A DNA stretch of 64,000 nucleotides, taken from the NCBI RefSeq assembly GCF_002764115.1, contig NZ_CP017943.1, positions 186,001 through 250,000 on the forward strand. Reading direction: 5' to 3'. Every line of letters begins with the position of its first letter. The stretch's first letter is position 1. The notes below the pieces were generated by a model, which was given only the letters and a program-made list of their open reading frames with translations, was not told where the DNA came from and made no database searches. Of the stretch, positions 30,929-48,147 are shown one piece after another. Made by a program: the position numbers and the translations under genes. The stretch is from Phyllobacterium zundukense. Lineage in GTDB: Bacteria > Pseudomonadota > Alphaproteobacteria > Rhizobiales > Rhizobiaceae.

Positions 30929-31840
30929 ATGTCTGTCAAGATTGCCATCAACCCGATCACCTGGACGAACGACGACGTGCCGGAACTTGGTGGTGACACG
31001 CCGCTTGAACAGTGCCTCTCCGAAATGCGCCAGGCGGGGTACGCCGGGACCGAGTTGGGCGGAAAATACCCGCGCCAGAGCGCAGCATTGAAGGGGATGC
31101 TCGCGCCTTATGGGCTTGAACTCGCCTCTGGCTGGTGGGACGGCCACCTCTACGAGCGGGGTGTGGAGGCAGAGTTTGAGGCTATCCTGGCGCATCTGAC
31201 GCTGCTTAGGGATCTCGGTGCGAGGCATGTCGTTTACGCCGACACCTCAATGGGTCGCCATGACGGCATTTGGCAGCCCATTTCGAAACGCCCGCGGCTT
31301 AGAGATGAGGAATGGGAAGGATATGGCCGCAAGCTCACCGACCTTGCAGAACGCATGGCGGAATTCGGCGTCGGCTTGGCCTTCCACCACCATATGGGCA
31401 CCATCGTCGAGACAGATGAGGAGATTGACCGGCTTATGTCCGTGACGGGAGAACGCGTTGGTCTCCTGTTCGACAGCGGTCACAGTGCCTTCAGCGGCGG
31501 GGATCCGGTGGCTCTCGTTGTCCGCCATGCCAAACGCATCGTCCACGTGCATTGTAAGGATGTGCGCGTTGATGTTCTTCGCGCAGCCCGTGAACGGGAC
31601 GTCAGCTTCATGGACGCCGTTCTGGAGGGCATCTTCACCGTTCCAGGCGATGGCGGTGTGGATTTTCCCACTATCCTGAAAACTCTCGCCAAAACCGGCT
31701 ATGGCGGCTGGCTCGTTGTAGAAGCAGAGCAGGATCCAAAGAAGGCCAACCCGCTGACCTATGCAAAGATGGGTCACGAAAACCTGGCGCGCATGGCTGC
31801 GGCGGCCGGCTTCCGCTTAGCTTCGGCACACGAAGATTGA
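30929..31840 (+). CDS. mocC: Inosose dehydratase-like rhizopine catabolism protein (MocC/IolE family)
   Basis: A 303-residue TIM-barrel protein of the sugar isomerase/epimerase (AP endonuclease 2-like) superfamily, close to myo-inosose-2 dehydratase (IolE). It starts VKIAINPITWTNDDVPELGGDTP, and has GYAGTELGGKYPR, LAFHHHMGTIVET, LLFDSGHSAFSGGDP and IVHVHCKDVR, which supply the metal ligands. IolE removes water from keto-inositol. MocC is its homologue in rhizopine catabolism loci. It is preceded by a segment shared with the mocD promoter and followed by a hairpin. Whether it handles inosose or an aminated keto-inositol cannot be read from sequence. Confidence 0.85.
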   Translation: MSVKIAINPITWTNDDVPELGGDTPLEQCLSEMRQAGYAGTELGGKYPRQSAALKGMLAPYGLELASGWWDGHLYERGVEAEFEAILAHLTLLRDLGARHVVYADTSMGRHDGIWQPISKRPRLRDEEWEGYGRKLTDLAERMAEFGVGLAFHHHMGTIVETDEEIDRLMSVTGERVGLLFDSGHSAFSGGDPVALVVRHAKRIVHVHCKDVRVDVLRAARERDVSFMDAVLEGIFTVPGDGGVDFPTILKTLAKTGYGGWLVVEAEQDPKKANPLTYAKMGHENLARMAAAAGFRLASAHED

Positions 31841-31903
31841 CGCGAATGACAGCGGCATAAAGTTCAACCCGCAGCGGCTTAATCCTCCCAAGGCGGCGGG
31901 TCG

Positions 31904-31933
31904 GGGGCGACACGTTACGGAGCGTGTCGCCCC
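31904..31933 (+). terminator. Hairpin after mocC
   Basis: GGGGCGACACG and CGTGTCGCCCC form a perfect 11-base stem with an eight-base loop, 64 bases past the mocC stop. No T-run follows, so it is a terminator-like stem of uncertain efficiency. Confidence 0.5.
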
Positions 31934-32251
31934 ATCAAACTTGGAAACGTCACGTGGGGAGAAGCAGTCGGATGTTCGTCAATATCACCCACGCACTGGG
32001 CCCGACGTGGGTCCTGCTCGTCTTACCCTGATAGGAGTGATTGTGGCTTGCGCGTCGATGGTCCTCGCCCGATCAAAAGCGGCCGCCTGGAGGAAAGATC
32101 GGGCATCGACACTCGCAGAGCTTTTTGAAGCCCCTGGCATGAAACAGCTCGATCCACCCGCTACCGGCATTGCGGCAGCATTGGAGTTTTAGCGAAACGA
32201 GACGGAGCGTGGCCGGCCGTGACCGGACCTGCGCGAACAGGAGGAAGCCTC
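31934..32251. other. Intergenic, nothing recognised
   Basis: An open frame of 83 codons exists on the plus strand, but its translation is unrecognised and no ribosome site is seen. Promoter elements for the dehydrogenase and ABC genes may lie here. Confidence 0.4.
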
Positions 32252-33313
32252 ATGGACTCAGTGCGCTGGGGAATTATTGGTACGGCCGCAATCGCCGTGG
32301 ACAAGGTTATTCCGTCGATGGTGGGCGCGGAAGGGCTGGAGGTGGTGGCGGTCGCCTCCCGCGATGCGGACAAAGCGCGGGCCGTAGCAACCCGTTTCGG
32401 AATAGGACGGAGCTACGGATCGTACGATGAGATACTCGCAGATCCGGAAATCGAGGCCGTTTATATCCCCCTGCCGAACCACCTCCATGTGCAATGGGCG
32501 ATCCGAGCGGCCGAAGCGGGCAAGCATGTTCTATGCGAGAAGCCGTTGGCTTTGGACGTCCAAGAGCTGAGCCGCCTAATCGAGTGCAGGGACCGAACGG
32601 GCCGGCGAATCCAGGAGGCGGTGATGATCCGGGCGCATCCGCAGTGGGAAGAAATTCTCGGCATCGTCGATTCCGGCGAGATCGGTGAAGTGCGCGCGGT
32701 GCAGGGAGTGTTTACCGAAATCAATCTCGATCCCAAGAGCATCGTGAACAATGCCTCGATCGGCGGCGGGGCGCTCTACGATCTCGGCGTTTACCCGATC
32801 GCTGCAGCCCGGATGGTCTTCGGTGCCGAGCCGGAACGCGTTTTTGCCGTCAGCGAATTCGACCCGGTTTTCGGTATCGACAGACTGACGAGCGCCGTCC
32901 TACTTTTCCCAGGGGGACATCAGGCTACCCTTATGGTCTCCACCCAACTCGCACTGCGCCACAATGTCGAGATCTTTGGCACCCGGAAGTCGATCAGCCT
33001 CAGCAATCCGTTCAACCCCGCGCCGGATGACCACTGCAGGATCGTGTTGGACGATGGCAGCAAGCTCGCGGCGGCCGCAGCCGAGACGAGGCTGGTCGCC
33101 CCGGCCGATCAATATCGCCTTCAGGCGGAGCGGTTCAGCGCAGCGATACGTTCCGGGGGCTCTTTGCCGATCGAACTCGAATGGTCGCTGGGAAGCATGG
33201 AGGTGCTCAATGCGATCCAACGTTCGGCTGAAAGCGGCAACTGGGAGTCCGTCGAGCGGACCCGTCCACGAACGCCACAGCGGGCAGATGGGGTTGCGCT
33301 GACCTGGACCTGA
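32252..33313 (+). CDS. Gfo/Idh/MocA-family NAD(P)-dependent dehydrogenase
   Basis: A 353-residue oxidoreductase. The Rossmann start VRWGIIGTAAIAVDKVIPSM carries GxxxxA instead of the perfect GxGxxG. The family motif HVLCEKPLALD (EKP, cofactor and substrate contact) is near residue 95, and the C-terminal substrate domain contains GGGALYDLGVYPI with the conserved D-x-G-x-H/Y-type pattern, here ending VYPI. The start at 32252 follows AGGAGG. It is the first gene before the sugar ABC ATPase and permease. Likely role: oxidation of an inositol or other polyol delivered by that importer. It is distinct from the mocA-like gene at 38626-39567. Confidence 0.85.
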   Translation: MDSVRWGIIGTAAIAVDKVIPSMVGAEGLEVVAVASRDADKARAVATRFGIGRSYGSYDEILADPEIEAVYIPLPNHLHVQWAIRAAEAGKHVLCEKPLALDVQELSRLIECRDRTGRRIQEAVMIRAHPQWEEILGIVDSGEIGEVRAVQGVFTEINLDPKSIVNNASIGGGALYDLGVYPIAAARMVFGAEPERVFAVSEFDPVFGIDRLTSAVLLFPGGHQATLMVSTQLALRHNVEIFGTRKSISLSNPFNPAPDDHCRIVLDDGSKLAAAAAETRLVAPADQYRLQAERFSAAIRSGGSLPIELEWSLGSMEVLNAIQRSAESGNWESVERTRPRTPQRADGVALTWT

Positions 33314-33495
33314 TGGATGCGTTTCACGAATGGCCGCCTTGGGGACGTGCTGTTCCTGCAGCCAACTAAGACATGCCGATAGCAGCGATCCGGCCCGACG
33401 GCGCGAGGAGCAAATAAGCCGGCAATTCTGGAGAGAAGTCACGTGCCGATGAGAGTGGAGGATCGGCCAATCCCGCAAAATAGGGAGGCGATGAG

Positions 33496-35037
33496 ATGAC
33501 GGTTAGTCCGAGTACGATGGCTGCGGTGCGTTTAAGCGGTGCGGTCCCGAAGGCGGAGTATTTGCTTACGGTCGAGGGCGTTCGCAAGGAGTTTCCCGGT
33601 GTGGTGGCGCTTGACGACGTGTCGTTCCGGCTGAAGCGGGGCACGGTGCATGCGCTGGTGGGCGAGAACGGCGCCGGCAAGTCGACGCTGATGAAGATTC
33701 TGGCCGGCATCTACACCCCCGACAAGGGCGACGTGAAGTTCAAGGGCGTCGATATCCAGCTGAAATCACCCCTGGATGCACTCGAAAACGGCATCGCGAT
33801 GATCCATCAAGAACTCAACCTGATGCCCTTGATGACGGTCGCCGAAAATATCTGGATCCGCCGCGAACCCCTGACCCGCTTCGGTTTCGTCGATCACGGC
33901 GAAATGAACCGGAAGACGGCAGACCTGTTCAAGCGCCTGAACATCGCGCTCGACCCGCAGTCGGAAGTGCGCGACCTGTCGATCGCCAACCGGCAGATGG
34001 TCGAGATCGCCAAGGCGGTTTCATACGAATCCGACGTGCTGATCATGGACGAGCCCACATCGGCACTCACCGAGCGCGAAGTCTCCCATCTCTTTACCAT
34101 TATTCGCGACCTGCGCTCGCAGGGCATCGGCATCGTCTACATCACCCACAAGATGAACGAACTGTTCGAGATCGCCGATGAATTTTCGGTGTTCCGCGAC
34201 GGCAAGTATATCGGTACGCACGCATCCACGGATGCGACCCGCGACGACATCATCAAGATGATGGTCGGCCGCGAGATCACGCAGATGTTCCCGAAGGAAG
34301 AGGTTCCGATCGGTGACGTCGTCCTGTCGGTGAAGGACCTCTGTCTGAAAGATGTCTTCCACGATGTTTCCTTCGATGTTCGCGCCGGGGAGATCCTCGG
34401 CGTTGCCGGCCTGGTCGGCTCCGGCCGCTCGAACGTTGCCGAGACCCTGTTCGGTGTCACGCCGGCCACGTTCGGTTCGATCCGGATCAACGGCAAGCCG
34501 GTCACAATCGCCTCGCCGACGGAAGCGATCAGACACCGCATGGCGTTCCTGACCGAGGACCGCAAGGACACCGGCTGCCTGCTGATCCTCGACGTGCTCG
34601 AAAACATGCAGATCGCCGTGCTGCAGGACAAGTTCGTCAATATGGGCTTTGTCGAACAGAAGGCCCTGTCAGCGCAATGCGAAGAGATGGCCCGTAAGCT
34701 CAGGGTGAAGACGCCGAACCTCGCCGAGCGCATCGAGAACCTGTCCGGCGGCAATCAGCAGAAGGCGCTGATCGGCCGCTGGCTGTTGACCGAGCCTCGG
34801 ATACTGATCCTCGACGAGCCAACGCGCGGCATCGACGTCGGTGCCAAGGCGGAAATTCACCGTCTGGTCACCGAACTCGCGCGCGACGGTGTCGCGGTCA
34901 TCATGATTTCGTCGGAAATGCCGGAGGTTCTTGGCATGAGCGATCGCGTCATGGTCATGCACGAAGGCCGGGTGACCGGCTTCCTCAATCGGGCGGAAGC
35001 GACCCAGGTCAAGGTGATGGAGCTTGCGGCGCGCTGA
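33496..35037 (+). CDS. Sugar ABC importer ATPase, RbsA/XylG type
   Basis: A 513-residue protein with two ABC domains, the ribose/inositol class. Domain 1 has Walker [10 protein letters not shown] near residue 57 and DEPTSALTE near 178. Domain 2 has a deviating Walker A region (GLVGSGRSN near 305), the signature LSGGNQQK near 415 and [13 protein letters not shown] near 435. Asymmetric domains are normal in this family. GGGAGG precedes the ATG. The permease follows after 34 bases. The matching binding protein is probably mocB at 39913-40842, now separated by several kilobases of remnants. Confidence 0.92.
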
Positions 35038-35071
35038 CGGCAAAAAATGTCAACCATAGGGAGGAGACAGC

Positions 35072-36097
35072 ATGGATACCAATGTCGCGGCACAGGGCGC
35101 AAGCCCGCCGCTTGCCAAGTCGGGGCGGCGCATGCCGGCCGAATTCAATATTTTCCTGGTGCTGGTCGTCATCGCGCTGGTCTATGAGGTGCTCGGCTGG
35201 ATCTTTATCGGCCAGAGCTTTCTGATGAACCAGCAGCGCCTGACGATCATGATCCTGCAGGTATCGGTGATCGGGATCATTGCCGTCGGCGTCACCCAGG
35301 TGATCATCACCGGCGGTATCGACCTGTCCTCCGGCTCCGTCGTGGGCATGACGGCGATGATTGCCGCCAGCGTGGCGCAGGCATCGAGCTGGCCGCGGGC
35401 GCTCTATCCGTCGCTGACGGATCTGCCTGCGGTCGTGCCGATCATGCTCTGCCTGGGGATCGGGCTGTTGGCCGGCTTCGTGAATGGCCAGTTGATCGCC
35501 CGAACGAAGATTCCGCCGTTTATCGCCACGCTGGGCATGATGGTTTCGGCCCGCGGCGTTTCCAAGTGGTACACGAAGGGCCAGCCGATCTCCGGGCTGA
35601 CGGACCAGTTCAATTTCATCGGCACGGGCATCTGGCCGGTCGTCGTCTTCCTCGTCGTGGCGCTAGTCTTCCACATTGGCCTGCGCTATACCCGCTACGG
35701 CAAGTTCACCTATGCGATCGGCGCCAACGTCCAGGCGGCCCGCATCTCCGGTATCAATGTCGAGGCGCATCTGGTCAAGGTCTATGCGATCGCCGGCATG
35801 CTGGCAGGGCTCGCCGGCGCCGTCACGGCGGCCCGCGCCCAGACGGCGCAGGCCGGCATGGGCGTGATGTATGAACTCGACGCAATCGCCGCCGCCGTTA
35901 TCGGCGGCACATCGCTCACCGGCGGCGCCGGCCGCATCACAGGCACCGTCATCGGCACCATCATCCTCGGCGTCATGACCTCCGGCTTCACCTTCCTGCG
36001 CGTCGACGCCTACTACCAGGAAGTCGTCAAGGGCCTCATCATCATCGCCGCCGTCGTCATCGACGTCTATCGGCAGAAGGGACGGAAGAGGGCATAG
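35072..36097 (+). CDS. Sugar ABC importer permease, RbsC type
   Basis: A 341-residue membrane protein of the branched/ribose permease family with about nine hydrophobic helices. VTQVIITGGIDLSSGSVVGMTAMIAA, IPPFIATLGMM and YAIGANVQAARISGINVEAHLVK are diagnostic of RbsC-like proteins; the last is the cytoplasmic coupling loop. GGGAGGAG lies before the start. It completes the membrane part of an importer with the upstream ATPase. In this locus the likely substrates are inositol derivatives or rhizopine, judged by the neighbours. Confidence 0.92.
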   Translation: MDTNVAAQGASPPLAKSGRRMPAEFNIFLVLVVIALVYEVLGWIFIGQSFLMNQQRLTIMILQVSVIGIIAVGVTQVIITGGIDLSSGSVVGMTAMIAASVAQASSWPRALYPSLTDLPAVVPIMLCLGIGLLAGFVNGQLIARTKIPPFIATLGMMVSARGVSKWYTKGQPISGLTDQFNFIGTGIWPVVVFLVVALVFHIGLRYTRYGKFTYAIGANVQAARISGINVEAHLVKVYAIAGMLAGLAGAVTAARAQTAQAGMGVMYELDAIAAAVIGGTSLTGGAGRITGTVIGTIILGVMTSGFTFLRVDAYYQEVVKGLIIIAAVVIDVYRQKGRKRA

Positions 36098-36128
36098 GTA
36101 GGGCGGGAAGAACCTACATTAGCACCAG

Positions 36129-36152
36129 CCGGGGCGTTTTCGTGCGCCCCGG
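36129..36152 (+). terminator. Hairpin after the sugar permease
   Basis: CCGGGGCG and CGCCCCGG form a perfect eight-base stem with an eight-base loop, 32 bases past the permease stop. TTCATCC follows instead of a T-run. Confidence 0.5.
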
Positions 36153-36289
36153 TTCATCCGCTTCAAAACGTAACGAGGCGATTTTCCATACCCGGCTTTT
36201 GGCGCGCGCGGAAAAGGTGGTTTTCTGTTCGTTCCAATGCAACTGGCGTTGAACATTTTGGCCTCCCAGATCGAAAAATGCCTTCTCTT

Positions 36290-36770
36290 TCCAAGAGCGA
36301 TTTTAGTTTCGTCTTGCGGATCGTCATCGTGAATGGGGCAACTTTGGGGGCATTGTATCTGCGGGCCACCGGGGCTGCGGGTGCGGTCGCAGCAAAGTAT
36401 CCCGCGCGCAAACACGCTTCCGTAGCCGCAATGCGTAGCGCGGGAATTCAGGCCAGATTGCAGTTGTTGGCGCTGACGCTGATCGGACGTATTCGTCAGG
36501 CACGTATTTGGGCGCGCAATTCGGCAAAGGCCGAAACCTTCGCGCGGGAACTTTCGAATGAGTTTGGATTCACGATAACTGCATGCACGGAACAGATCGA
36601 AGCAGTGGCTGGATCTCATATCATCGTCACGACGACGCCGGCTACGAACCGATTTTCAGCACATCACGACCATGGGATCAGACGCTGAACACAAGAATGA
36701 ACTCAAATCCGGGTCGCCAGGCGAACCATTGGCGAAATCATCAGCCGGGCCGGTCGGCAGCCTGAAGGTT
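36290..36770 (+). pseudogene. Decayed ornithine cyclodeaminase/mu-crystallin family gene
   Basis: The translation RATGAAGAVAAKYPARKHAS, then IRQARIWARNSAKAETFARELS and AGSHIIVTTTPAT matches the NAD-binding half of the ornithine cyclodeaminase family. In a different frame just downstream, GSDAEHKNELKSG gives the next conserved block, so a frameshift lies near 36660. The N-terminal substrate domain and the C-terminus are missing. Family members act on ornithine, lysine, alanine or opine-like amino acids. Confidence 0.75.
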
Positions 36771-37057
36771 TCGTCACATTCCGCCAGCCTGAGATGCGGC
36801 TGTTGATTGCCATCATGCTCGATCGGAGGCACTCGAACAGGGTCTTCCAGACTACGACATTTGCAGGGCCGATCTCATCCTCGTGGTGAGAAACGGGACG
36901 CCTTTCCCCCCCTGACTTCTGGTGGACGAGAACGAGCCTGGCCGTCCTCAGCCAGCGCCCCGTCGGGCGGCCCAATGGTTCTGCGGAGGTGACAATGTTC
37001 CTCGTCTCCCGATCATCGCTCTGATCTAGGGCCGACGTCCGTCTCCCCAGATAGGAT

Positions 37058-37290
37058 CCCGCTCATTCAGATCGGCTTGGATCAGAATGCGTTGCGCGCC
37101 GATGTAGTTTTGGCCCACGACCCAGAACGCGCCGGAGACAGAGCCTTCAACTGCTTTGTCAAAGTCGCAATCCTTCATGACGATGACCGAGCTTCCATAG
37201 CAAGCTTCTTCAAGCCCGCCGATCGGCTGATCGCCTCGTCGGTCGCCGCCCGAAAACGACACCATGCGGACCTGGCGCGCAGAGATCAAG
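37058..37290 (-). pseudogene. Aldehyde dehydrogenase fragment
   Basis: The minus strand reads VSFSGGDRRGDQ, then SVIVMKDCDFDKAVEGSVSGAFW and GQNYIGAQRILIQADL. This is the central part of an aldehyde dehydrogenase, where the family has VSFTGS, then VIV..DADLD.AV and GQNCI. The catalytic cysteine is replaced by tyrosine (NYIG), and both ends are lost, so it is inactive. Confidence 0.75.
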
Positions 37291-37409
37291 CGGTGATCAA
37301 CTCCCTGGCATGCTTCAAGTGGAGCGCTCTGAACGACGCTTGTGGGGCTCCATCGCAACCTCCTTGTTCAAGGTGTTGCGACGACCGGTTGAATTTGCCT
37401 TGCACAACT

Positions 37410-37735
37410 GGACAAACCCGGCATGAGCCGTCCGATTCACCCGCTAACTGACAATACGACGGGCGAACGCATCGATAACGAAGGCGACAGAAACGAGGCC
37501 ATGCCAGGCGGTGGACATTTGTGAAATCGCTCACCTAGAGCCGGATCGGCGCGGGAGCCTTGAACTGGCTGTTCACGCGGTCGAGCGGGCTGGCAGCCGG
37601 CTTGTCTGGAAATGTCGAGCGGATCGGCATTGCCTCGGGTAATGCTCTGAAGACCCATCACCCTCATGAGCCGAGCGAGGGTGCATCTGGCGACGTCGAA
37701 CAGGCAGAACTTTTCGTCATCGACTTGACGCCCTC
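37410..37735 (-). mobile_element. IS3-family transposase remnant
   Basis: Pieces in more than one minus-strand frame read [26 protein letters not shown], then PLDRVNSQFKAPAP, VSDFT, and VAFVIDAFARRIV-like and RTAHAGFV-like segments. These are consecutive blocks of an IS3-group OrfB integrase (DDE), with stops and frameshifts between them. It abuts and overlaps the 3' end of the YdjC-like gene at 37664. Confidence 0.75.
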
Positions 37736-38593
37736 CCGCAATGATCCGCGCCGAACGGGCAAACCGTCTGTCCATTTCCGAAACGATGAGTCCTTCAACA
37801 CCTCATACTCGTCGATGCGAATTTGCGCGGAATCGGGTTCGATAGCCTCGATCTCTCCCGGCGCATTTGCGTGCAGGCAAAGAAAGTTGAGGCCGGGTTC
37901 GATTTGCTCAAAAAGATGTTGGTATCGCTCGGCTGCAGGTTGCCTCCTGTGCCAGGGCGTCTCAAGGGCTTTGGTTGCAAGTATTTCGCCGGCGTTAACG
38001 AGACGCTCTGCTGCACTTGTATAACTATCTTGGTCAACCGCCCCCAGATTGTGTTTAGGCCCGTATGCTGCGATCGTTGCTGGGAACACTGTGGGTAGTT
38101 TAAACTCAAGGCAGAGTGCGACATATCGGTCAACAAACTCGGGTGAAAAGACGCCACCCATATGGCCATCAACATGCGTGGGGGTCAGACCCGCCGAGAG
38201 AAAGGTCTCGATTTGAGCACGCATCTCGGCGTCGACCGCGTCTGGATGGGCATGACGCCGCAGCTCCGCTACACTCCGCCACATGAAGCCGTCGCCGTCG
38301 ATGAGCCCCGATGAAGCTGAAACCTTTGTGAGAGGCCGCCATCGATAGTGGCGCTTCTCGGATGTGAGTGTGAGATGGATGCCGAGATTAAGATCTGGTT
38401 CCAGCGCGCCAGCCTCGGCGATTTCGGGAAACCATGGACACGGGACCATAACGGATCCTGAATCCACCGCTCCAAGCCGACGCAGCTCAATATAAGCTTG
38501 ATTGGCGCCGTGACACATGCCAACGTCGTCGATATTGATCACCACGAAGGGAGGTTTGAACTCTCCGTTGTCGCTTTTCCCAACATTGGTCAT
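37664..38593 (-). CDS. YdjC/ChbG-like carbohydrate deacetylase, 3' end replaced by IS3 sequence
   Basis: A 309-residue protein of the ChbG/HpnK (YdjC) family, metal-dependent deacetylases of N-acetylated sugars. [18 protein letters not shown] gives the catalytic D-D pair, [11 protein letters not shown] the first histidine site, and [15 protein letters not shown] the second. The last 30 or so residues ([20 protein letters not shown]) come from the IS3 remnant read in another frame, so the native end is lost after [17 protein letters not shown] start at the ATG at 38593 after AGGAGGG. It may still fold. It follows the mocA-like gene by 32 bases. A role in removing an acetyl group from an aminoinositol would fit but is speculative. 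Confidence 0.75.
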
Positions 38594-38625
38594 CCTGATT
38601 ATTTCCCTCCTACTCACCACTCCAC

Positions 38626-39567
38626 CTACTTATCCGTCTGATTGAGTTCGCGTGACAGTACTTCGGTGGCTGCTTCGGCGACGGCGAGCGCGGCAACAGC
38701 GTCTGGAGCGGTTGCACCCTGTGGTGCCCCTCCCTCGGCAGCTTGAACGAAATCTTCAAGCTGGGCCCGGAGGGCATTCAGGAAGACCGCTTCTCCATCT
38801 GGGGGCCAAAAGAAGCGAGATTCGGCAAAGCCTGCGGTGCCGAAGACTTGAGTCCAGCAAGCATCCCCAAGTGGAAATCTCCGCCCTAGCGAAACGAGAC
38901 CGCTGCTACCGTCTGACAAATCGCAAAGTAGATGAACAGCATCGGGATCGACTTTCACCGCTTCTGCAAATGTAGTTTTCGAGGCAGCAACGCGAAAATT
39001 GGTCGGTTCCTGGCCTGTAAGCCAGCGCATCTGATCAAATTCATGGACGCCCATGTCGACAAACGCACCGCCTCCAGTAGCTCGGAATGAAGCCGCTGGG
39101 GGTGTTTCATCCCATTGAAAGCAAGAAACGAGGTAAAGGTCACCAAGCAGCCCCGCGCGGATGTTATCTCGGAGTTGCTTCAGCTCAGGAACGAACCGTC
39201 GCCAGTATCCTATCTGCAAGTGCACTTTAAACCGTTCTGCCACCTCGGCGGCCTTGCGAGCTTCTTCGGCAGTGACGCCGCAGGGCTTTTCGCAGAGGAT
39301 GGGTAAGCCGCGTGCCGCTATCTCTGCGACTGTATCCACATGCGTCTTGCTGGGGGTTGCGATAAGAACGCCATCAACTTCGCCGGAATCTATCATCTCA
39401 CCGGCGGTTTCATACGTTTTAATCCCGCTGCCCGCCAAACTAAGGCGAGTAGCGGCTACCGGATCCGCGACGGCAGCGATTTCGACAAGCGAGCTTTCAG
39501 CAGCAGCACGAAGATGAACCTGACCCATTCGGCCAGCACCAATTAAACCAAGACGGAATTTGCTCAT
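38626..39567 (-). CDS. mocA: MocA-like Gfo/Idh/MocA dehydrogenase
   Basis: A 313-residue NAD(P)-dependent dehydrogenase. [18 protein letters not shown] is a perfect Rossmann start, [13 protein letters not shown] holds the EKP motif near residue 95, and [21 protein letters not shown] contains the D-x-G-x-H catalytic pattern near 172. It is transcribed leftward after mocB and before the YdjC-like gene. The mocA-mocB adjacency is what is known from rhizobial rhizopine loci, and MocA gave the family its name. Expected role: oxidation of scyllo-inosamine or a related inositol. The gene name rests on context and recall, not on alignment. Confidence 0.8.
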
Positions 39568-39912
39568 AGTTAATCCAGCGGTTAGAGTTTAATAACGGAT
39601 AGGTTCAAAGCGGATCTGCCTTTGCCGCAGTCCACTCAGCCTCGCACAAGACCATGGCCTTACGACCATTCACTCTGCCAACCTGTAGGGTTAGATCCGA
39701 TTGGTCGAGCTTGAGCGGCATGATGGCGCGTACTGTTGGGTATGCACCGGTGGCAGGCACGGTTGACGGTGTTTAGCATTTGAGGTCACTATTCTCGCGC
39801 CGATCCATGTCCGGCTGGAGTCCAGGAGCGAAATGTGCCATCTCGTCGCCCCCTTTAGTGGTAGACGGACGCATCGGAGTTGGGCGCGCCGGCGGCGCGC
39901 CCCAGATCAAGT
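39568..39912. other. Gap between mocB and mocA with a GC-rich stem-loop
   Basis: GGGCGCGCC and GGCGCGCCC form a perfect nine-base stem with a three-base loop at 39882-39902, ten bases past the mocB stop. Stem-loops after binding-protein genes often protect their mRNA or reduce read-through, raising binding protein above downstream genes. The rest has no gene I can name. A minus-strand stretch (about 39607-39770) reading LDQSDLTLQVGRVNGRKAMVL faintly resembles a hotdog thioesterase end, at low confidence. Confidence 0.5.
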
Positions 39913-40842: not shown

Positions 40843-40959
40843 TTCGTTTTTCTCCTCCGCTCTTCGGTGCCGGCACATCCAACACTTGAAGAGACCACAG
40901 ATTGAAGGGATAATGGCCCAACTGAAAGAGCAGCTTTCAACGATTTTGAAGGAACCAAT
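40843..40959. promoter_or_regulatory. mocB-mocR divergent promoter region
   Basis: A 117-base gap between divergent genes. It contains GAAAG-AGCAG-CTTTC at 40924-40938 and, overlapping the mocR ribosome site, GAAGGAACCAAT (40948-40959), which resembles the core of the segments before mocC and mocD. These could be MocR sites for autoregulation and mocB control. Confidence 0.4.
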
Positions 40960-42471
40960 TTGGCCAAGCGACGCACCCGTTTTCCCTCGGATATGCTTGT
41001 TCTTGATCGCGACGCAGATGTACCTATGCACCGGCAGCTCTACGAAAAGCTGCGTGCAGAAATACTCGCCGGTCATCTGAAGGCTGACACACGCCTCCCA
41101 CCCACCCGTTTGATGGCCGAGGATCTCGGCGTTAGCCGCAACACGGTGATCACTACTTACGACACTCTTCTCGCTGAGGGGTATCTGGAATCGCGTTCAG
41201 GATCGGGCACCTGGGTGGCGACGCTGCCCGCAGACGCCGTCACTCAGCGGAATTCGGTTGGCAGGGCCGGTGCGCCGTCTCTCTCATCCCGCGGTACGAG
41301 AATGGCTAATCAGCCGCGAGACCGGACGATCCCTGATCGCATAGCCTTCCATCCCGGCTATCCGGAGATCAAAGCGTTTCCCTTCTCCACGTGGGCACGG
41401 CTGCTCAAGCGGCACGCGCGATATTCCCATGAAGACCTCTACGGCTACCATTGGGTTACGGGCCACCCGCGGCTGAAGGCGGCGATAGCAGAATACCTGC
41501 GGGCTTCACGGGGTGTGGAGTGCAACCCCGAGCAGGTGATCGTGGTCAACGGCACGCAAGCCGCCCTCGACATTCTTGCTCGCATGCTCGTCGACGAAGG
41601 CGATATCTGCTGGATGGAGGAGCCCGGCTACGTTGGCGCCCAAAACGCACTCCTGAGCGCCGGCGCAAGACTCGTGCCATTGCCTGTCGGACCAGACGGC
41701 TGGTCGCTAGACGACGAGACCCGGCCATCGCCGCGTCTGATCTTCGTCACGCCATCCTGCCAATGGCCGCTAGGCTGCGTCATGCGCATGGAAGACAGGC
41801 TGCGGCTTCTTCAGATTGCCGAGAGGCACGATGCCTGGATTGTCGAGGACGACTACGACAGCGAGTATCGTTTCCGCGGACGGCCGATACCGGCGATGCA
41901 GGGCTTGGACAAGTCCGGGCGCGTAATCTATGTGGGCACCTTTGCGAAGACGCTCTTCCCCTCGCTGAGGATCGGCTTCATCGTTGTGCCGCCGCATCTC
42001 TCGGAAGGGTTCAAGCGGGTTGCCAGCAACACAGGCCACTATCCCTCCCTCCTGCTGCAAGCTGCACTCGCGGATTTCATCAGCGAGGGCTACTTCGCCA
42101 CACATCTTCGGCGGATGCGCCGCCTTTATGCTGATCGGCAGAAGGTATTCGTCGCTGAGTGCCGGCGCCATCTCGCTGACTGGCTCACAATCGATGAAAA
42201 CGACGCGGGCATGCAACTTGTTGCGCGCTTCACGCGGGGGCTTGAAGATGAGATTCTGTGGCAGGCGGCGCAGAGGCAGGGCGTGAATTTCTCACCACTG
42301 TCACGACAGTTCTTCCATAGCCCGCCCCAACAGGGCGCCATACTGGGTTACGCTGGCATCGACCTGAAGACCATGCGCGAGGGGATTAGTTCATTGCGTG
42401 CAGCCTTCGTGAACCTAGAGAGCAGCGGCGCTCTCGGCCCGCCGGAGCGTGCTTTACCACCGCGGCCGTGA
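40960..42471 (+). CDS. mocR: MocR-type GntR/aminotransferase transcriptional regulator
   Basis: A 503-residue regulator of the MocR/PdxR class, a GntR winged helix joined to a fold-type I aminotransferase domain. DVPMHRQLYEKLRAEILAGHLKADTRLPPTRLMAEDLGVSRNTVITTYDTL is the DNA-binding part (residues 20-75). NGTQAALDILARML, WIVEDDYDSEYRF and GTFAKTLFPSLRIGF (PLP lysine) belong to the second domain. I keep the TTG at 40960, which has GAAGGAA seven bases upstream; ATG at 40993 is an alternative. It diverges from mocB and precedes mocD, so it probably controls both. MocR is the founding member of the class and comes from rhizopine loci, which matches the setting exactly. Confidence 0.88.
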   Translation: MAKRRTRFPSDMLVLDRDADVPMHRQLYEKLRAEILAGHLKADTRLPPTRLMAEDLGVSRNTVITTYDTLLAEGYLESRSGSGTWVATLPADAVTQRNSVGRAGAPSLSSRGTRMANQPRDRTIPDRIAFHPGYPEIKAFPFSTWARLLKRHARYSHEDLYGYHWVTGHPRLKAAIAEYLRASRGVECNPEQVIVVNGTQAALDILARMLVDEGDICWMEEPGYVGAQNALLSAGARLVPLPVGPDGWSLDDETRPSPRLIFVTPSCQWPLGCVMRMEDRLRLLQIAERHDAWIVEDDYDSEYRFRGRPIPAMQGLDKSGRVIYVGTFAKTLFPSLRIGFIVVPPHLSEGFKRVASNTGHYPSLLLQAALADFISEGYFATHLRRMRRLYADRQKVFVAECRRHLADWLTIDENDAGMQLVARFTRGLEDEILWQAAQRQGVNFSPLSRQFFHSPPQQGAILGYAGIDLKTMREGISSLRAAFVNLESSGALGPPERALPPRP

Positions 42472-42532
42472 TACCGGCTTCCGATGCGCACTGAACCCAG
42501 CCGAGCATAAGGGGGTAATACGCCCAGGAAAA

Positions 42533-42581
42533 AGCGGTGCTCTCCAAAAACTAGAAAGTGGCTCTCACGAAGGGACCAATC
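42533..42581 (+). promoter_or_regulatory. Candidate MocR site upstream of mocD
   Basis: Aligns ungapped to 30771-30820 upstream of mocC; the best core is CACGAAGGGACCAATC. It ends 40 bases before the mocD start, a normal place for an activator or operator site. Confidence 0.45.
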
Positions 42582-42621
42582 ATGGGTTAGCATAATTTAG
42601 CATTAAAACCGGAGGCACCCA

Positions 42622-43707
42622 ATGGTTCCGACAAAAAGAGATTACAGCCTGCTTGGTCGCGATACCGAAGCCGCGGTTGAGAGTGGGCTTGCAGCAGCCG
42701 AGTGGTATCACACCGACGTTCCGCGCAAGCAGATGAAGGAACTGATGAAGCGCGAGGATGGTCCTGCCATCCGCGACACCATCATCTGGCTCGGCAGCAT
42801 GGTCCTTTTCGGCGGCCTCGGCATCTATTTCTGGGGCACGTGGTTCGCCGTGCCATTTTTCCTCGCCTATGGCGTACTCTATGGCTCGGCTTCCGACAGC
42901 CGCTGGCACGAATGCGGCCACGGCACGGCCTTCAAGACCCGCTGGATGAATGATGTCGTCTACCAGATCGCCTGCTTCATGATCATGCGCAATCCGGTGA
43001 CATGGCGCTGGAGCCACACCCGCCACCACACCGACACGGTGATTGTCGGCCGCGATCCGGAGATCGCTGTTATGCGTCCGCCGGATCTCCTGAGAATCGT
43101 CGTCAATGTCTTTGGCATCATTGATGTCTGGCATGCGGTCATCGATATGGTGCGTAACGCGGCCGGGATCGTCAGCGCCGAGGAGAAGACATTCATCCCG
43201 GAGATGGAGCAGCCGAAGGTGATCCGCGTGGCACGGATATGGGTAGCGATCTATGCGGTAACGATCGGGTTCTCGATCTGGTTGGGTTCCATCCTGCCGC
43301 TGATGCTGATCGGGCTGCCGCGATTCTACGGCGCCTGGCATGCGGTGATGACGGGCCTTTTGCAGCACGGAGGCCTTGCCGACAACGTGACCGACCACCG
43401 GCTCAACAGCCGCACCGTCTTTATGAATCCGCTGAGCCGCTTCATCTATTGGAACATGAACTATCATGTGGAGCACCACATGTTTCCGATGGTGCCCTAT
43501 CATGCGCTGCCGAAGCTCCACGCCATCATCAAGTACGACCTGCCTGCCGCCAATCCGTCGATCCTTCACGGCTTCCGCGAAATGATCCCAGCCTTTCTGC
43601 GGCAATTGCGCAACGAGGACTATTTCCTGAAGCGCGAGCTGCCGCCGACGGCGAGGCCTTATCGCGAAGAGTTCCACAGCGACCGGGGCGTCCACGCCGC
43701 CGAGTGA
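42622..43707 (+). CDS. mocD: Membrane diiron oxygenase/desaturase-like rhizopine oxygenase subunit
   Basis: A 361-residue integral membrane protein of the fatty-acid-desaturase/alkane-hydroxylase superfamily. Three histidine boxes bind the diiron centre: HECGH at 96-100, HTRHH at 132-136 and HVEHH at 282-286, with hydrophobic helices near 53-90 and 220-245. The next two genes encode a Rieske ferredoxin and a ferredoxin reductase, giving a complete electron chain. In Rhizobium leguminosarum, MocD with MocE and MocF is reported to demethylate the rhizopine 3-O-methyl-scyllo-inosamine; I rely on memory for that. Formaldehyde would be released, which fits the folate genes downstream. Confidence 0.85.
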   Translation: MVPTKRDYSLLGRDTEAAVESGLAAAEWYHTDVPRKQMKELMKREDGPAIRDTIIWLGSMVLFGGLGIYFWGTWFAVPFFLAYGVLYGSASDSRWHECGHGTAFKTRWMNDVVYQIACFMIMRNPVTWRWSHTRHHTDTVIVGRDPEIAVMRPPDLLRIVVNVFGIIDVWHAVIDMVRNAAGIVSAEEKTFIPEMEQPKVIRVARIWVAIYAVTIGFSIWLGSILPLMLIGLPRFYGAWHAVMTGLLQHGGLADNVTDHRLNSRTVFMNPLSRFIYWNMNYHVEHHMFPMVPYHALPKLHAIIKYDLPAANPSILHGFREMIPAFLRQLRNEDYFLKRELPPTARPYREEFHSDRGVHAAE

Positions 43708-43748
43708 GGCGAGCCGGCAATCAGACAATGCGATGAATGGAGGAAACC

Positions 43749-44066
43749 ATGAGCTCGAACTGGGTCCAGGTCTGCGCAGCCGACGATATCGACGAGGAAG
43801 ACGTCATCCGTTTCGACCATGAAGGCCGTACCTTCGCCGTCTACCGCAGCCCCGATGACGAATACTTTGCGACGGACGGGCTCTGCACCCATGAGCAGAT
43901 CCACCTCGCCGAGGGGCTGGTGATGGACGACATCATCGAATGTCCGAAGCACAACGGTCGCTTCAACTATAAAACCGGCCAGGCCAAGGGGGCGCCCGTT
44001 TGCGTCAACCTGAAGACCTATCCGGTCAAGGTCGAGGCCGGCAGCGTCTTCATAGCGATTACCTGA
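43749..44066 (+). CDS. mocE: Rieske-type ferredoxin MocE
   Basis: A 105-residue soluble Rieske [2Fe-2S] protein. The cluster ligands are C46-x-H48 in CTHEQIHL and C65-x-x-H68 in CPKHNGRF. Length fits stand-alone Rieske ferredoxins of oxygenase systems. I start at the ATG at 43749, preceded by GGAGGAAACC. It lies 41 bases after mocD and 39 before mocF. It should carry electrons from the reductase to the diiron oxygenase. Confidence 0.92.
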   Translation: MSSNWVQVCAADDIDEEDVIRFDHEGRTFAVYRSPDDEYFATDGLCTHEQIHLAEGLVMDDIIECPKHNGRFNYKTGQAKGAPVCVNLKTYPVKVEAGSVFIAIT

Positions 44067-44105
44067 GCACGCGGCCTGATGCTTCAGGCGCGAGGGGAGG
44101 AGAAC

Positions 44106-45332
44106 ATGAGCCATATTGTGATCGTCGGCGCCGGCGAATGCGGCGCAAGGGCGGCTTTTGCCCTCAGGGAAAAGGGTTTTGGGGGCGAAATCACCCTGAT
44201 CGGCGCTGAACCCCACCTCCCTTACGAGCGGCCGCCGCTTTCCAAGGAAGGGCTCGCCTGCGGGGGGGCGCCGAAATACGTGGCCGGCCCCGAGCGCTAT
44301 GACGACGCTCAGATTACCGTATTGATCGGTGTCCCGGTCGAGGCGATTGACCGAAGGCGCAAGGCGGTGCGGCTCGCGGATGGCCGTGCCATTGACTACG
44401 ATCGGCTGCTGCTTGCGACCGGCGCCCGGCCGCGCGCCCTTCTGAGCGTGAGCGGGAACATCGAGCGTATCCGGATGCTCCGGACCCATACCGATGCTCT
44501 GGCGATCCGTGGCGAACTTGCGCCGGGGCGGAAGCTCGCCATCATCGGCGGCGGCTTTATCGGTCTAGAACTCGCTGCGACGGCCCGCAAGCTCGGCGCC
44601 GACGTCGTGGTCATCGAGGGCTTGCCGCGCATCCTTTCCCGCGGCGTGCCGGAGGAGATCGCAGCAGTCGTTGCCGAGCGGCACCGGCAGGAAGGCGTCA
44701 AGATTGTTTGCGGCGCGCGCATCGCGGCGCTTGAGGCGGATGATGATAACGGACGAGTCCTCTTCGCCGATGGCGCCTGTATGCCCGCCGATCTCATTGT
44801 CGTCGGCATTGGGGTGATCCCGAACACCGAACTTGCGGAGGCTGCCGGAATCCTGGTCGAAAACGGCATCGCCGTTGACGAAACGCTCGAAACCTCGGAC
44901 CCCGACATCTATGCGGCGGGCGACTGCTGTTCCTTTCCGCTCTCGCACTACGACGGCCGGCGGGTGCGGCTCGAAGCCTGGCGCAATGCGCAGGATCAGG
45001 GGACGATCGCTGCTGCCAACCTGATGGGTGCGGCCGAGCCTGTCACAAGCGTACCGTGGTTCTGGTCGGATCAATACGAGCTGACTCTGCAGATTGCCGG
45101 CCTCGCCGATGGCGCTGTGGCGACTGTCCGACGCGACCTCGGGAACGACGCATTCATTCTGTTCCACCTCGCCAGCGAGGGGCGGCTGATCGCCGCAAGC
45201 GGCATTGGCCCCGGGAGTGCGGTCGCCCGCGACATTCGCCTTGCGGAAATGCTCATCGCCGCAGGTAGCCGCCCGGACCCAGCAGCACTTGCCTCGCCCG
45301 AGACCAAGCTCAAGAAACTCTTGGCGGCCTGA
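44106..45332 (+). CDS. mocF: Ferredoxin reductase MocF
   Basis: A 408-residue FAD- and NAD(P)H-dependent reductase of the putidaredoxin-reductase type. IVIVGAGECGARAAF is the FAD Rossmann motif, LATGARPR near residue 105 is typical, GRKLAIIGGGFIGLELAA near 145 binds NAD(P)H, and DIYAAGDC near 270 is the second FAD contact. The C-terminal domain is present. GAGGGGAGGAGAAC precedes the start. It follows mocE and completes the mocDEF electron-transfer set. Confidence 0.92.
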   Translation: MSHIVIVGAGECGARAAFALREKGFGGEITLIGAEPHLPYERPPLSKEGLACGGAPKYVAGPERYDDAQITVLIGVPVEAIDRRRKAVRLADGRAIDYDRLLLATGARPRALLSVSGNIERIRMLRTHTDALAIRGELAPGRKLAIIGGGFIGLELAATARKLGADVVVIEGLPRILSRGVPEEIAAVVAERHRQEGVKIVCGARIAALEADDDNGRVLFADGACMPADLIVVGIGVIPNTELAEAAGILVENGIAVDETLETSDPDIYAAGDCCSFPLSHYDGRRVRLEAWRNAQDQGTIAAANLMGAAEPVTSVPWFWSDQYELTLQIAGLADGAVATVRRDLGNDAFILFHLASEGRLIAASGIGPGSAVARDIRLAEMLIAAGSRPDPAALASPETKLKKLLAA

Positions 45333-45379
45333 GCGCCGCCAGAGCTCGCCATTCAACTTTGCAAATACCGGAGATTTCG

Positions 45380-46195
45380 ATGAAACACCGCCGCCCGACC
45401 GTCGCCGATCTGTTGTCTATAAAGGGTAAGAGGCAACTCACCATGCTGCGCGTTGTCACACTCGAGGAAGCGGAAGCGGCCGAAAAGGCCGGCATCGACC
45501 TTGTCTCCGTTCCACCGCAACTGCTTGGCCCCGCCTTCCGCGAGGTGGCCCCATCCGTCTTCGCCTTTCCCGGGCTCGACGATTTCGTAACGACCGAAGA
45601 TTATCTTCGCGCCGCCTTCCAGGCGATGCGTGCCGACGGCGACGCCGTCTATTGCGCCGCGGGGCTTTCGACAGTCCGACGGCTGCGCGAGGAGGGGATT
45701 CCGGTCTGCGGGCATGTCGGGCTGATCCCGTCGAAAGCCACCTGGACCGGCGGCTTCCGTGCCGTCGGCAAGAGTGCCGCGAGTGCGCTCGAGGTTTGGC
45801 GCCAGGTGAAGGCGCTCGAGGAGGCCGGCGCGTTTGCCGCCGAGATCGAGGTCGTGCCCGCCGAGGTCGCCTCGGCGATCTCCAAGCGCACGTCACTCCT
45901 GATGCTGTCCATGGGTGCCGGCACCGGATGCGACGCCCAGTACCTCTTTGCCGAGGACGTGCTCGGGCAAAACCGTGGCCACTATCCGCGCCATGCCAAG
46001 GTCTATCGCAACTTTGCCGCCGGGTTCGATCGGCTGCAGCAGGAGCGCATCGCAGCCTTCCGTGAATATGTCGAGGACGTGCGGTCCGGCGCCTATCCGG
46101 AAAAGGTACACCTCGTCGGCATAGCGCCGGAGGAGCTTGAGGGTTTTCTGAGTAGGATCGACGCACAGGATCAGACCGTTTCTCGCGCAGGATAA
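45380..46195 (+). CDS. PanB-like ketopantoate hydroxymethyltransferase homologue, divergent metal site
   Basis: A 271-residue protein related to PanB, which transfers a hydroxymethyl group from 5,10-methylene-tetrahydrofolate to 2-oxoisovalerate. The C-terminal half is clearly PanB: GIPVCGHVGLIPSKATWTGG, then ALEEAGAFAAEIEVVPAEV with the catalytic-type glutamate, and MGAGTGCDAQYLFAEDVLG. The N-terminal half departs from PanB: where the family has VGDS and ADMPF (Mg-binding aspartates), this protein has LVSVPPQLLG and APSVFAFPGLDD. It sits 47 bases after mocF and 41 before purU. Placement suggests it handles a folate-bound one-carbon unit from rhizopine demethylation, not pantothenate synthesis. 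That is inference. Confidence 0.75.
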   Translation: MKHRRPTVADLLSIKGKRQLTMLRVVTLEEAEAAEKAGIDLVSVPPQLLGPAFREVAPSVFAFPGLDDFVTTEDYLRAAFQAMRADGDAVYCAAGLSTVRRLREEGIPVCGHVGLIPSKATWTGGFRAVGKSAASALEVWRQVKALEEAGAFAAEIEVVPAEVASAISKRTSLLMLSMGAGTGCDAQYLFAEDVLGQNRGHYPRHAKVYRNFAAGFDRLQQERIAAFREYVEDVRSGAYPEKVHLVGIAPEELEGFLSRIDAQDQTVSRAG

Positions 46196-46236
46196 CAACG
46201 GCTCGGCACTCCGGGACGGCAGAGCAAGGACAAACC

Positions 46237-47121
46237 ATGCACACTTACGTTTTGACGGTCACCTGCAAATCTACCCGCGGCATTGTCGCGGCGCTTTCCG
46301 GCTATCTCGCTGAACAGAGCTGCAACATCATCGACAGTTCGCAGTTCGATGATCTCCAAACCGGCCTGTTCTTCATGCGCATTAGCTTCATCTCGGAGGA
46401 AGGCGTTGGCCGCTCCGCGATTGAGGAAGGGCTGAAGCCGATTGCCGCGAAATTCGCGATGGAAACGGCGCTCCACGACCAGTCAGAGCGCACCAAGGTG
46501 CTCTTGATGGTATCGCGCTTCGGCCATTGCCTGAACGACCTGCTCTATCGCTGGAAGATCGGCGCGCTGCCGATCGAGATCGTCGGCGTCGTCTCCAACC
46601 ACTTCGACTACCAGAAGGTCGTCGTCAATCACGATATCCCCTTCCACCACATTCCGGTCACCAAGGCCAACAAACCGCAGGCCGAAGCCCGGATCATGGA
46701 CGTGGTCGAGCAGACCGGCACGGAGCTGATCGTGCTTGCCCGCTACATGCAGATCCTGTCGGACCAGATGTGCAGCACGATGTCCGGCCAGATCATCAAC
46801 ATCCACCACTCCTTCCTGCCGTCCTTCAAGGGCGCCAACCCATACAAGCAGGCCTATGAGCGCGGTGTGAAGCTGATCGGCGCGACGGCGCACTATGTTA
46901 CCGCGGATCTCGACGAAGGCCCGATCATCGAGCAGGACATCGCCCGCATCACCCATGCGCAGTCGGCTGAGGACTATGTCTCGATCGGCCGAGACGTCGA
47001 AAGCCAGGTGCTGGCCCGTGCCGTGCACGCGCATATCCACCACCGCACCTTCATCAACGGCAACCGCACCGTCGTCTTCCCGGCAAGCCCGGGGAGTTAC
47101 GCGTCGGAAAGGATGGGGTGA
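46237..47121 (+). CDS. purU: Formyltetrahydrofolate deformylase
   Basis: A 294-residue enzyme that hydrolyses 10-formyl-tetrahydrofolate to formate and tetrahydrofolate. The N-terminal ACT domain starts TYVLTVTCKSTRGIVAALSGYLAE; the formyltransferase-fold part has LARYMQILSDQM, INIHHSFLPSFKGANPYKQA with the catalytic N-x-H pattern, and DEGPIIEQD. Length is normal. It precedes folD by three bases. In catabolic operons purU commonly recycles folate when demethylation floods the one-carbon pool, as beside sarcosine oxidase genes. Here the source is probably the MocDEF reaction. Confidence 0.93.
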   Translation: MHTYVLTVTCKSTRGIVAALSGYLAEQSCNIIDSSQFDDLQTGLFFMRISFISEEGVGRSAIEEGLKPIAAKFAMETALHDQSERTKVLLMVSRFGHCLNDLLYRWKIGALPIEIVGVVSNHFDYQKVVVNHDIPFHHIPVTKANKPQAEARIMDVVEQTGTELIVLARYMQILSDQMCSTMSGQIINIHHSFLPSFKGANPYKQAYERGVKLIGATAHYVTADLDEGPIIEQDIARITHAQSAEDYVSIGRDVESQVLARAVHAHIHHRTFINGNRTVVFPASPGSYASERMG

Positions 47122-47124
47122 GGC

Positions 47125-48147
47125 ATGGCCCAAATTTTATACGGAAAACCGATCGCAACCGCTGTTATCAATGCTGTAAAGGCAGGCGCTGCTTCGCTCC
47201 AAGAGACCACCGGCATCGAAACGGGTCTCGCAGTCATTATGGTTGGGGATGACCCAGCAAGTCACACCTATGTCAATGCGAAAAGCAAGATGGCCAAGCA
47301 GTGTGGCTTCCGATCTGTGCAACATATCCTGTCCATCGAAACTTCGCAGGAAGAGCTCTTGGCGCGCGTGGCGTCGCTCAATGCGGACAAGACGATTCAC
47401 GGAATTCTCGTTCAGCTCCCATTGCCGAAGCATCTCGACGCAGAATCAATCATCCAGGCGATCCACCCGGAGAAGGACGTAGATGGTCTTCATGTCGTGA
47501 ACGCTGGAAAGGTAGCGATCGGCGATCTCAAAACGGGTCTGGTCTCTTGCACACCAGCTGGCGTTATGGTGCTCATTCGGCACGTCCACGGAGACGATCT
47601 TTCCGGCCTTAATGCTGTTGTAATCGGTCGGTCGAACCTTTTTGGAAAGCCGATGGCGCAACTGTTGCTCAACGCGAACGCCACCGTGACAATCGCCCAC
47701 TCCCGTACGAGGGATCTGCCGGAGATATGCCGGAAGGCAGATATTCTGGTCGCGGCGGTCGGTCGCCCCGAGATGGTTCAGGGCGACTGGCTGAAGCCCG
47801 GCGCTACGGTAATCGATGTTGGCATCAACCGGATCCCTGCGCCCGAGAAAGGCGAAGGCAAGACGCGGCTTATCGGTGATGTTGCTTTCAAGGAAGCTGA
47901 GCAGGTCGCTGCCGCCATCACGCCCGTTCCGGAAGGTGTCGGCCCCATGACAATCGCGATGCTCATGGCCAACACCCTAAAGGCCGCTCAAAATTCAATC
48001 GATGCTTCCTGTCCTGAGAGTGGCATGGACCTGTCGCAACAACGTCAACAAGGACATGGTTGCAGTCGAGGAAATCTTCCGCCTGCAGAACATGGATCAG
48101 GTCAAGGCGGACGAGAAGGCGTTTCTGGCGTAGCGACGGACAAGTGA
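47125..48147 (+). CDS. folD: Bifunctional methylene-THF dehydrogenase/cyclohydrolase with foreign C-terminal tail
   Basis: A 340-residue FolD, which oxidises 5,10-methylene-THF to methenyl-THF and hydrates it to 10-formyl-[16 protein letters not shown] holds the catalytic Y-x-x-x-K, then [34 protein letters not shown], and the end motif [15 protein letters not shown]. Normal FolD is about 295 residues; here about 48 residues after TLKAAQNS are non-homologous (Gln/Gly-rich, ending [10 protein letters not shown]) and look like read-through into unrelated DNA after loss of the native stop. The core is complete, so activity is likely. With PurU it converts methylene-THF to formate, regenerating THF. 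Confidence 0.88.

Follow-up and report, generated by a model that had tools for sequence, protein, structure and literature searches.

A one-carbon gene set behind mocDEF in the rhizopine locus of Phyllobacterium zundukense, and a candidate O-demethylation module of alphaproteobacteria

The DNA analyzed, here called the window, is a stretch of 64,000 nt from Phyllobacterium zundukense (NZ_CP017943.1, positions 186,001-250,000, forward strand) that contains a rhizopine (moc) locus. On its plus strand, from 40960 on, lie in order mocR, mocD, mocE, mocF, a panB-like gene (product named PanBL), purU and folD. The run from mocD to folD is interpreted, with moderate confidence, as one operon in which an oxidative O-demethylation is coupled to one-carbon (C1) disposal, PanBL being a putative new protein of C1 handling. 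Cited papers are given by their PMC number.

The mocD-folD run of the rhizopine locus

The run is made up of the following genes.

40960..42471, plus strand: mocR, regulator; NF052281, 765.1 bits (cut-off 650)
42622..43707, plus strand: mocD, desaturase-family oxygenase; FA_desaturase, 126.1 bits
43749..44066, plus strand: mocE, Rieske [2Fe-2S] ferredoxin by profile; first in-frame ATG at 43737
44106..45332, plus strand: mocF, ferredoxin reductase by pyridine-nucleotide reductase profile; first in-frame ATG at 44079
45380..46195, plus strand: panB-like gene, with PanB fold and the PanB metal site lost (profile, residues, model)
46237..47121, plus strand: purU, formyl-tetrahydrofolate (formyl-THF) deformylase; TIGR00655, 330.3 bits (cut-off 285.95)
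47125..48147, plus strand: folD, methylene-THF dehydrogenase/cyclohydrolase; NF010785, 476.6 bits (cut-off 396)

The score of MocR is that of the rhizopine type, and mocB, mocC, mocR and mocDEF lie in one cluster that matches plasmid loci carrying mocR. The names mocR, mocC (as IolE family), purU and folD are backed by family scores, and the name PanB is not. An earlier, sequence-only reading of this DNA had described a co-directional mocR-mocDEF-panB-like-purU-folD order, and the coordinates of the open reading frames (ORFs) agree with it, with gaps of 47 bases between mocF and panBL, 41 between panBL and purU and 3 between purU and folD. The same direction had also been attributed to mocB and the adjacent Gfo/Idh/MocA gene, which is incorrect: both are on the minus strand, and the genes are co-directional only from mocR onward.

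Public species genomes were scanned with MocD, and the best 80 of at least 592 stretches were compared (at least 79% identity). Five with less than 1500 bases beyond mocF were left out, and in the 75 usable loci, which are mutually related so that the counts are not independent, panBL was found behind mocF in 60, purU in 22 (immediately downstream in 19, within a divergent transporter operon in 3) and folD in 8. All 22 loci with purU also carry panBL; purU without panBL was never seen among the 75. Two of them are rhizopine loci as judged by MocR, both with panBL, purU and a broken folD. A survey of 72,556 plasmid records at a coverage of at least 80% gave 13 with mocR, and these are the same 13 that reach that coverage of 42500-48300 (mocDEF-panBL-purU); they belong to Sinorhizobium (8) and Rhizobium (5), and the scores suggest that several are nearly identical. 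Since the mocDEF-panBL-purU order recurs in many genomes, it is beyond chance. That it might be unique to this genome, a finding that by the sequence-only reading's own account would have spoken against it, is rejected by the 60 loci with panBL after mocF and by the 13 plasmid records. The same reading had given the PanB-like protein no role, yet it turned out to be the most constant partner of mocDEF.

Concerning transcription, the published mocB/mocD promoter element is a pair of 11-base boxes separated by 13 bases (PMC10107442). Pairs of such moc boxes (22 positions in all) were searched at spacings of 11-15, with 20 letter shuffles as control. At 3 or fewer mismatches four pairs occur in the window, each with a spacing of 13, while the 20 shuffles gave none.

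42531..42581, plus strand: pair with ACGAAGGGACCAATC element, 1 mismatch in 22; presumed promoter region of mocD-folD
30769..30819, plus strand: pair with ACGAAGGGGCCAATC element before mocC, 3 mismatches in 22, spacing 13
40927..40961, minus strand: pair before mocB, 3 mismatches
29856-29907, minus strand: exact pair with ACGAAGTGACCAATC element, less than 200 bases before a gamma-glutamyltransferase gene (27944-29686, minus strand)

In the whole genome of 6.2 Mb, pairs with 2 or fewer mismatches precede only mocD and the gamma-glutamyltransferase gene, and the latter gene is predicted to belong, as a new member, to the MocR regulon. When the four other rhizopine loci were scanned, pairs with 3 or fewer mismatches turned up before mocB, mocC or mocD; the transferase gene was not searched there. 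Between mocD and folD no pair was found at 4 or fewer mismatches; a pair with 5 mismatches at the end of folD (48116) is about what chance would give. No forward terminator-like site occurs from mocF to folD, such sites being at chance level anyway. The mocD promoter of Sinorhizobium meliloti L5-30 was induced 93-fold by scyllo-inosamine in Azorhizobium caulinodans, the unit being named mocDEF (PMC10107442). Because a box pair lies before mocD and none inside the run, no forward terminator-like site was seen from mocF on and the L5-30 promoter is inducible, co-transcription from mocD to folD is likely. The proposal that the folate set belongs to the moc operon is supported for the panB-like gene and purU, which go with mocDEF in order, spacing and conservation and have no moc-type promoter of their own inside the run. 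It is not supported equally for folD, which in the four other rhizopine loci is either damaged or reduced to a remnant.

Among the five rhizopine loci compared, folD is open only in the window, where its frame ends in an odd tail of about 45 residues. Two loci (L001, L042) show frame changes and stops, L023 has lost about 160 bases inside the gene and contains a stop, and L003 has only a degenerate remnant, judged by eye; in S. meliloti the DNA alignment to the window stops about 135 bases into folD. As the gene is open here and damaged in four relatives, folD was probably present in the ancestor of the rhizopine operons and is now being lost. The window genome has two further folD genes. In non-rhizopine loci, purU is followed by a folD ORF of 299-302 residues (L045, L046, L079) or adjoined by folD (L031, L086, L088).

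Five PurU of the window genome score above the cut-off. A PurU tree of 38 rows (33 different) has two deep groups (100/100), each including PurU encoded directly behind mocDEF-panBL and PurU encoded elsewhere, and the two PurU of the window genome linked to mocDEF-panBL fall one in each group. Since PurU of both deep groups sit behind the same genes, purU was probably joined to mocDEF-panBL at least twice, the alternative being that its association with panBL is older than the split of the groups.

The PanB-like protein and its gene neighbours

PanBL of the window scores 126.2 and 103.1 bits with PanB models whose cut-offs are 272 and 207.55, and no NCBIfam model fits better than PanB, either for it or for three other PanBL tried. 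For the residue comparison, we took the Mg ligands of PanB to be D45, D84 and E114, together with K112 and the catalytic E181, in Escherichia coli numbering. In 97 distinct PanBL strings (some of them the same gene with different starts), K112 and E114 are kept in none, D84 in 1 and D45 in 3, and E181 and H136 are kept in all 97. Of 13 rows used for comparison, two of them E. coli, all 13 have K112 and E181, 12 have D45, and D84 and E114 are present in 5 each; because of these last figures, the comparison set includes variant PanB itself. PanBL has moreover a W122, H205 and R223, invariant or nearly so, where PanB usually has another residue. When the AlphaFold2 model of PanBL (mean pLDDT 82.5; poor at residues 117-125 and 179-204) was compared with the PDB, ranks 1-28 were all taken by PanB structures, with query TM 0.55-0.68. 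Overall, a protein with the PanB fold and catalytic glutamate but with lost metal ligands and lysine is unlikely to be PanB.

In an Alphaproteobacteria sample of 385 genomes, 100 match at 1e-20, many of them through ordinary PanB and in the later part only. PanBL at 1e-38 or better occurs in 21 of the 385, the window's own genome included, and the next match is at 1.5e-30. A phylum sample gave matches at 1e-35 in 19 of 398 genomes, all in the same class.

The neighbourhood of panBL was examined in 34 stretches, 20 of which stand for 21 of the 23 non-own places in the class sample and 14 for 14 of the 21 further places, hand-picked, in the phylum sample. The control was 20 stretches with ordinary PanB, hand-picked from below PanBL in the class-sample match list. 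A MocD-like, sterol-desaturase-like or MocE-like gene lies within 5 kb in 20/34 PanBL stretches and in 0/20 of the control (Fisher p 5e-6, a value that is too small, as the loci are related and some references were drawn from PanBL loci). If Rieske oxygenases and PhyH are counted as well, this becomes 25/34 and 4/20, several references again coming from PanBL loci and the four control matches being PhyH relatives. The difference of 20/34 against 0/20, with purU or folD near in a single PanBL stretch, indicates from gene context that PanBL is tied to an oxygenase and that the folate genes are a local addition. PhyH dioxygenases were dropped as partners, since they adjoin PanBL in only 3/34 stretches (L156, L157, L159) and are near ordinary PanB in 4/20. 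As a separate observation, a small-genome alphaproteobacterium with four PanBL places has a tandem PanBL pair facing two PhyH dioxygenase genes (L159:7235-10556).

mocDEF beyond rhizopine, and other features of the window

A divergent LacI-family gene, instead of mocR, lies within 3 kb of mocD in 77/80 MocD loci; the exceptions are the two rhizopine loci and L025, where the contig extends only 323 bases upstream. A TIM-barrel gene is present within 6 kb in 58/80, and a part of a sugar ABC transporter (of the reference sets used) in 28/80 stretches. The window genome itself has two mocDEF-panBL-purU copies, the rhizopine one on C4 and another on C1, with LacI and TIM-barrel genes next to it. 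The Neotabrizicola cluster reads mocE, TIM barrel, mocF, panBL, folD, purU, iolG; here the same folate pair, reversed with respect to the window, is found in a bacterium of another order. A Marivivens cluster with no mocF in place leads into iolG, iolC, iolD, iolE and iolB, and on two Bradyrhizobium plasmids a sterol-desaturase-family protein takes the place of MocD.

The pSymB of S. meliloti 1021 carries mocDEF-panBL (607130-610801 of NC_003078.1), 98.1% identical to strain ml47, and this strain is stated to be unable to use rhizopine (PMC2597717). Conversely, panBL, purU and folD are all absent from six stretches of 12-19 kb that encode a MocR of 52-53% identity and have no mocDEF (four have mocC). 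The folate set had been presented as part of the moc operon; a tie to rhizopine as such is rejected by these MocR stretches, by pSymB and by the LacI-type loci, where the set accompanies mocDEF in non-rhizopine clusters too. In a MocD tree of 40 rows, the MocD of the five rhizopine loci falls among non-rhizopine MocD. Two separate origins are not claimed: the tree has two groups, but a single clade is not rejected (p-AU 0.324).

The link of LacI, TIM barrel and mocDEF was reported earlier and tied to an inositol derivative (PMC3538637). In Rhizobium mesoamericanum, mocDEF homologues were up 1.5-2.1 fold in Mimosa exudate, where, of the compounds listed, pinitol has the highest concentration (145 uM); those authors' reading was possible rhizopine use (PMC5789663). 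Because of this induction in a pinitol-rich exudate and of the earlier link to an inositol derivative, O-methyl inositols are likely the general substrates. The core mocDEF-panBL is interpreted as a general alphaproteobacterial module of O-demethylation, probably for O-methylated inositols or like sugars.

Genes similar to those of glycine betaine monooxygenase were observed close to the chromosomal mocDEF-panBL-purU copy (L109:4425-6758; GbcA-like 520 bits, cut-off 670, GbcB-like by eye), and also near mocDEF in other Phyllobacterium loci (L010, L011, L015, L019, L020, L021, L073, L078, L081).

The remaining genes of the rhizopine locus are as follows; mocC, the second Gfo/Idh/MocA gene and the two transporter genes are on the plus strand, upstream of the run.

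30929..31840, plus strand: mocC, inosose dehydratase-like, IolE family; TIGR04379, 395.6 bits (cut-off 290)
32219..33313, plus strand: second Gfo/Idh/MocA oxidoreductase, by profile
33496..35037, plus strand: sugar ABC transporter ATPase, by profile
35072..36097, plus strand: sugar ABC transporter permease, by profile
37664..38620, minus strand: YdjC-like deacetylase, at least 80% identity in 3 of the 4 other rhizopine loci
38626..39567, minus strand: Gfo/Idh/MocA gene behind mocB, by profile; taken as mocA (a unit mocBA is named in PMC10107442)
39913..40842, minus strand: mocB, periplasmic binding protein by profile

MocB scores only 42.7 bits with the rhizopine substrate-binding model NF052284 (cut-off 420), yet it is 82-89% identical to its counterparts in the four other rhizopine loci. 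The ATPase and permease (33496-36097, plus strand) have no close counterpart in the stretches compared from those loci. The YdjC-like gene recurs in three of them (L001, L003, L042) and in 3 of the 6 stretches with 52-53% MocR; maybe it is an unrecognised moc gene for an N-acetyl amino-inositol deacetylase. An ornithine cyclodeaminase/mu-crystallin gene fragment (36278-36688, plus strand) covers profile positions 112-205 of 314. Beside the locus, a minus-strand run (48836-54742) encodes a phosphodiesterase, a creatinase-like M24 peptidase, an FAD oxidase and Opp-type permeases. Just before the moc locus, at 30244-30273 (plus strand), there is a tRNA-like 3' end with CCA, which has three near matches elsewhere in the genome (2 mismatches) and is possibly an integration remnant; no second copy marking another island end was found in the window.

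Interpretation and comparison with known systems

In the published model, MocDEF releases a C1 unit from the O-methyl group of rhizopine, and the chemistry of PurU and FolD is established for their families. MocF and MocE would pass electrons to MocD, which would hydroxylate the O-methyl group of 3-O-methyl-scyllo-inosamine, and the hemiacetal would collapse to free inosamine and formaldehyde. PanBL would act on the C1 unit, most likely passing it to THF, as suggested by its context and by the residues lost and retained. FolD would then convert methylene-THF to formyl-THF, and PurU the latter to formate and THF. In rhizopine loci, the core mocDEF-panBL is wired to MocR; purU, sometimes with folD, was joined to this core, probably more than once. 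A more tentative extension, to which we give limited credence, is that PanBL represents a new enzyme class that loads the C1 unit of O-demethylations onto THF, having evolved from a PanB that lost the ketoacid half-reaction, and that mocDEF-panBL is the rhizobial route for using pinitol, ononitol and similar methylated inositols from legumes.

Several observations weigh against the operon of demethylation and C1 disposal proposed here. Neither panBL nor purU is obligatory, as 15/75 mocDEF loci lack the former and 53/75 the latter in the stretch examined; among the neighbours of those 15, no C1-like replacement gene was seen, by eye only. The MocD loci compared are relatives of one another, folD is decayed in four of the five rhizopine loci, and inositol catabolism genes (iolG, iolB-E) occur in only 13/80 MocD stretches. 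Around panBL, purU or folD lies within 5 kb in only 1/34 stretches, and 9/34 have no oxygenase or MocE-like gene of the reference sets used.

The decay of folD and the frequent absence of purU would be expected if panBL, purU and folD were passengers, left behind mocDEF by the rearrangement history of plasmids and with no tie to demethylation. This is nevertheless unlikely, given that PurU of two deep groups occupy the same place, that no purU without panBL occurs among the 75 loci and that PanBL is linked to like oxygenase parts in 20/34 stretches against 0/20. Hardly less doubtful is the view that MocDEF is a ring hydroxylase or desaturase, not a methyl-ether O-demethylase, with the folate genes serving another C1 source of the pathway. 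MocD does belong to the fatty acid desaturase family, and an aromatic-type role of mocDEF was suggested in Pseudomonas syringae (PMC5132102), but the company of purU and folD and the joint absence of mocDEF and folate genes from the six stretches of MocR relatives argue against it.

The other two alternatives concern PanBL. It would be quite improbable for it to be a hydroxymethyltransferase of pantothenate synthesis or of another ketoacid, with formaldehyde spent in biosynthesis (coenzyme A supply) instead of disposal. Its fold and the names in public annotation favour such an enzyme; its scores are below the PanB cut-offs, the lysine and Mg ligands are lost in 94-97 of the 97 strings, and an ordinary PanB is encoded on C1 (303.7 bits), so that PanBL as the cell's pantothenate enzyme was rejected as the main interpretation. 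A somewhat better case, although still an unlikely one, can be made for an action on the cyclitol, e.g., as aldolase or isomerase of the demethylated keto-inositol, instead of C1 transfer. The TIM-barrel gene near mocD in 58/80 loci and the near-invariant W122, H205 and R223, unlike the usual PanB letters, agree with it, but an inositol or Gfo gene lies within 5 kb in only 6/34 PanBL stretches. The interpretation as an O-demethylation operon with C1 disposal is thus retained.

Comparing with known systems, the rhizopine locus mocCABRDEF of S. meliloti L5-30 and Rhizobium leguminosarum (PMC10107442) shares with the window mocC, mocB with mocA, mocR, mocDEF and the moc-box promoters. It differs in that the window adds the panB-like gene, purU and folD: purU does not occur in the main text of that paper (panB was not searched there), where "fold" stands for fold-change. 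In the open PMC literature searched, as far as its text was available, no account was found of panBL, purU or folD as part of moc. A demethylase followed by a folate gene of C1 disposal is likewise present in the glyA-soxBDAG-purU sarcosine operons (PMC3691474), where, however, a sarcosine oxidase acts on an N-methyl group. The nicotine plasmid pAO1, with MABO, folD and purU (PMC6214936), combines a demethylating oxidase with FolD and PurU in one operon and has the same proposed flow to formate, but the reaction is an N-demethylation by a flavin oxidase. No PanBL is reported for either system in the portions available. The flavin oxidase of N-methyl compounds that marks such operons is absent from the operon of the window, which has a desaturase-family, Rieske and reductase set. 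With ketopantoate hydroxymethyltransferase PanB (1m3u, 3vav), PanBL shares the fold, the catalytic glutamate and the histidine of GHLGL, but it has lost the Mg ligands and the lysine and is below the curated scores. It is therefore a conserved protein labelled PanB in public annotation that, by its active site, is unlikely to be PanB. Finally, the clusters of LacI (FixV-like), Msi119 TIM barrel and mocDEF (PMC3538637) are the same non-rhizopine mocDEF clusters described here, proposed for an inositol derivative, although panB and hydroxymethyltransferase do not occur in the main text of that paper (purU was not searched there). Under the present interpretation, mocDEF, mostly mentioned in connection with rhizopine, becomes one instance of a wider O-demethylation module, and candidates arise for the inositol derivative that FixV, the LacI-type activator of nifA2, has been proposed to sense (PMC3538637).

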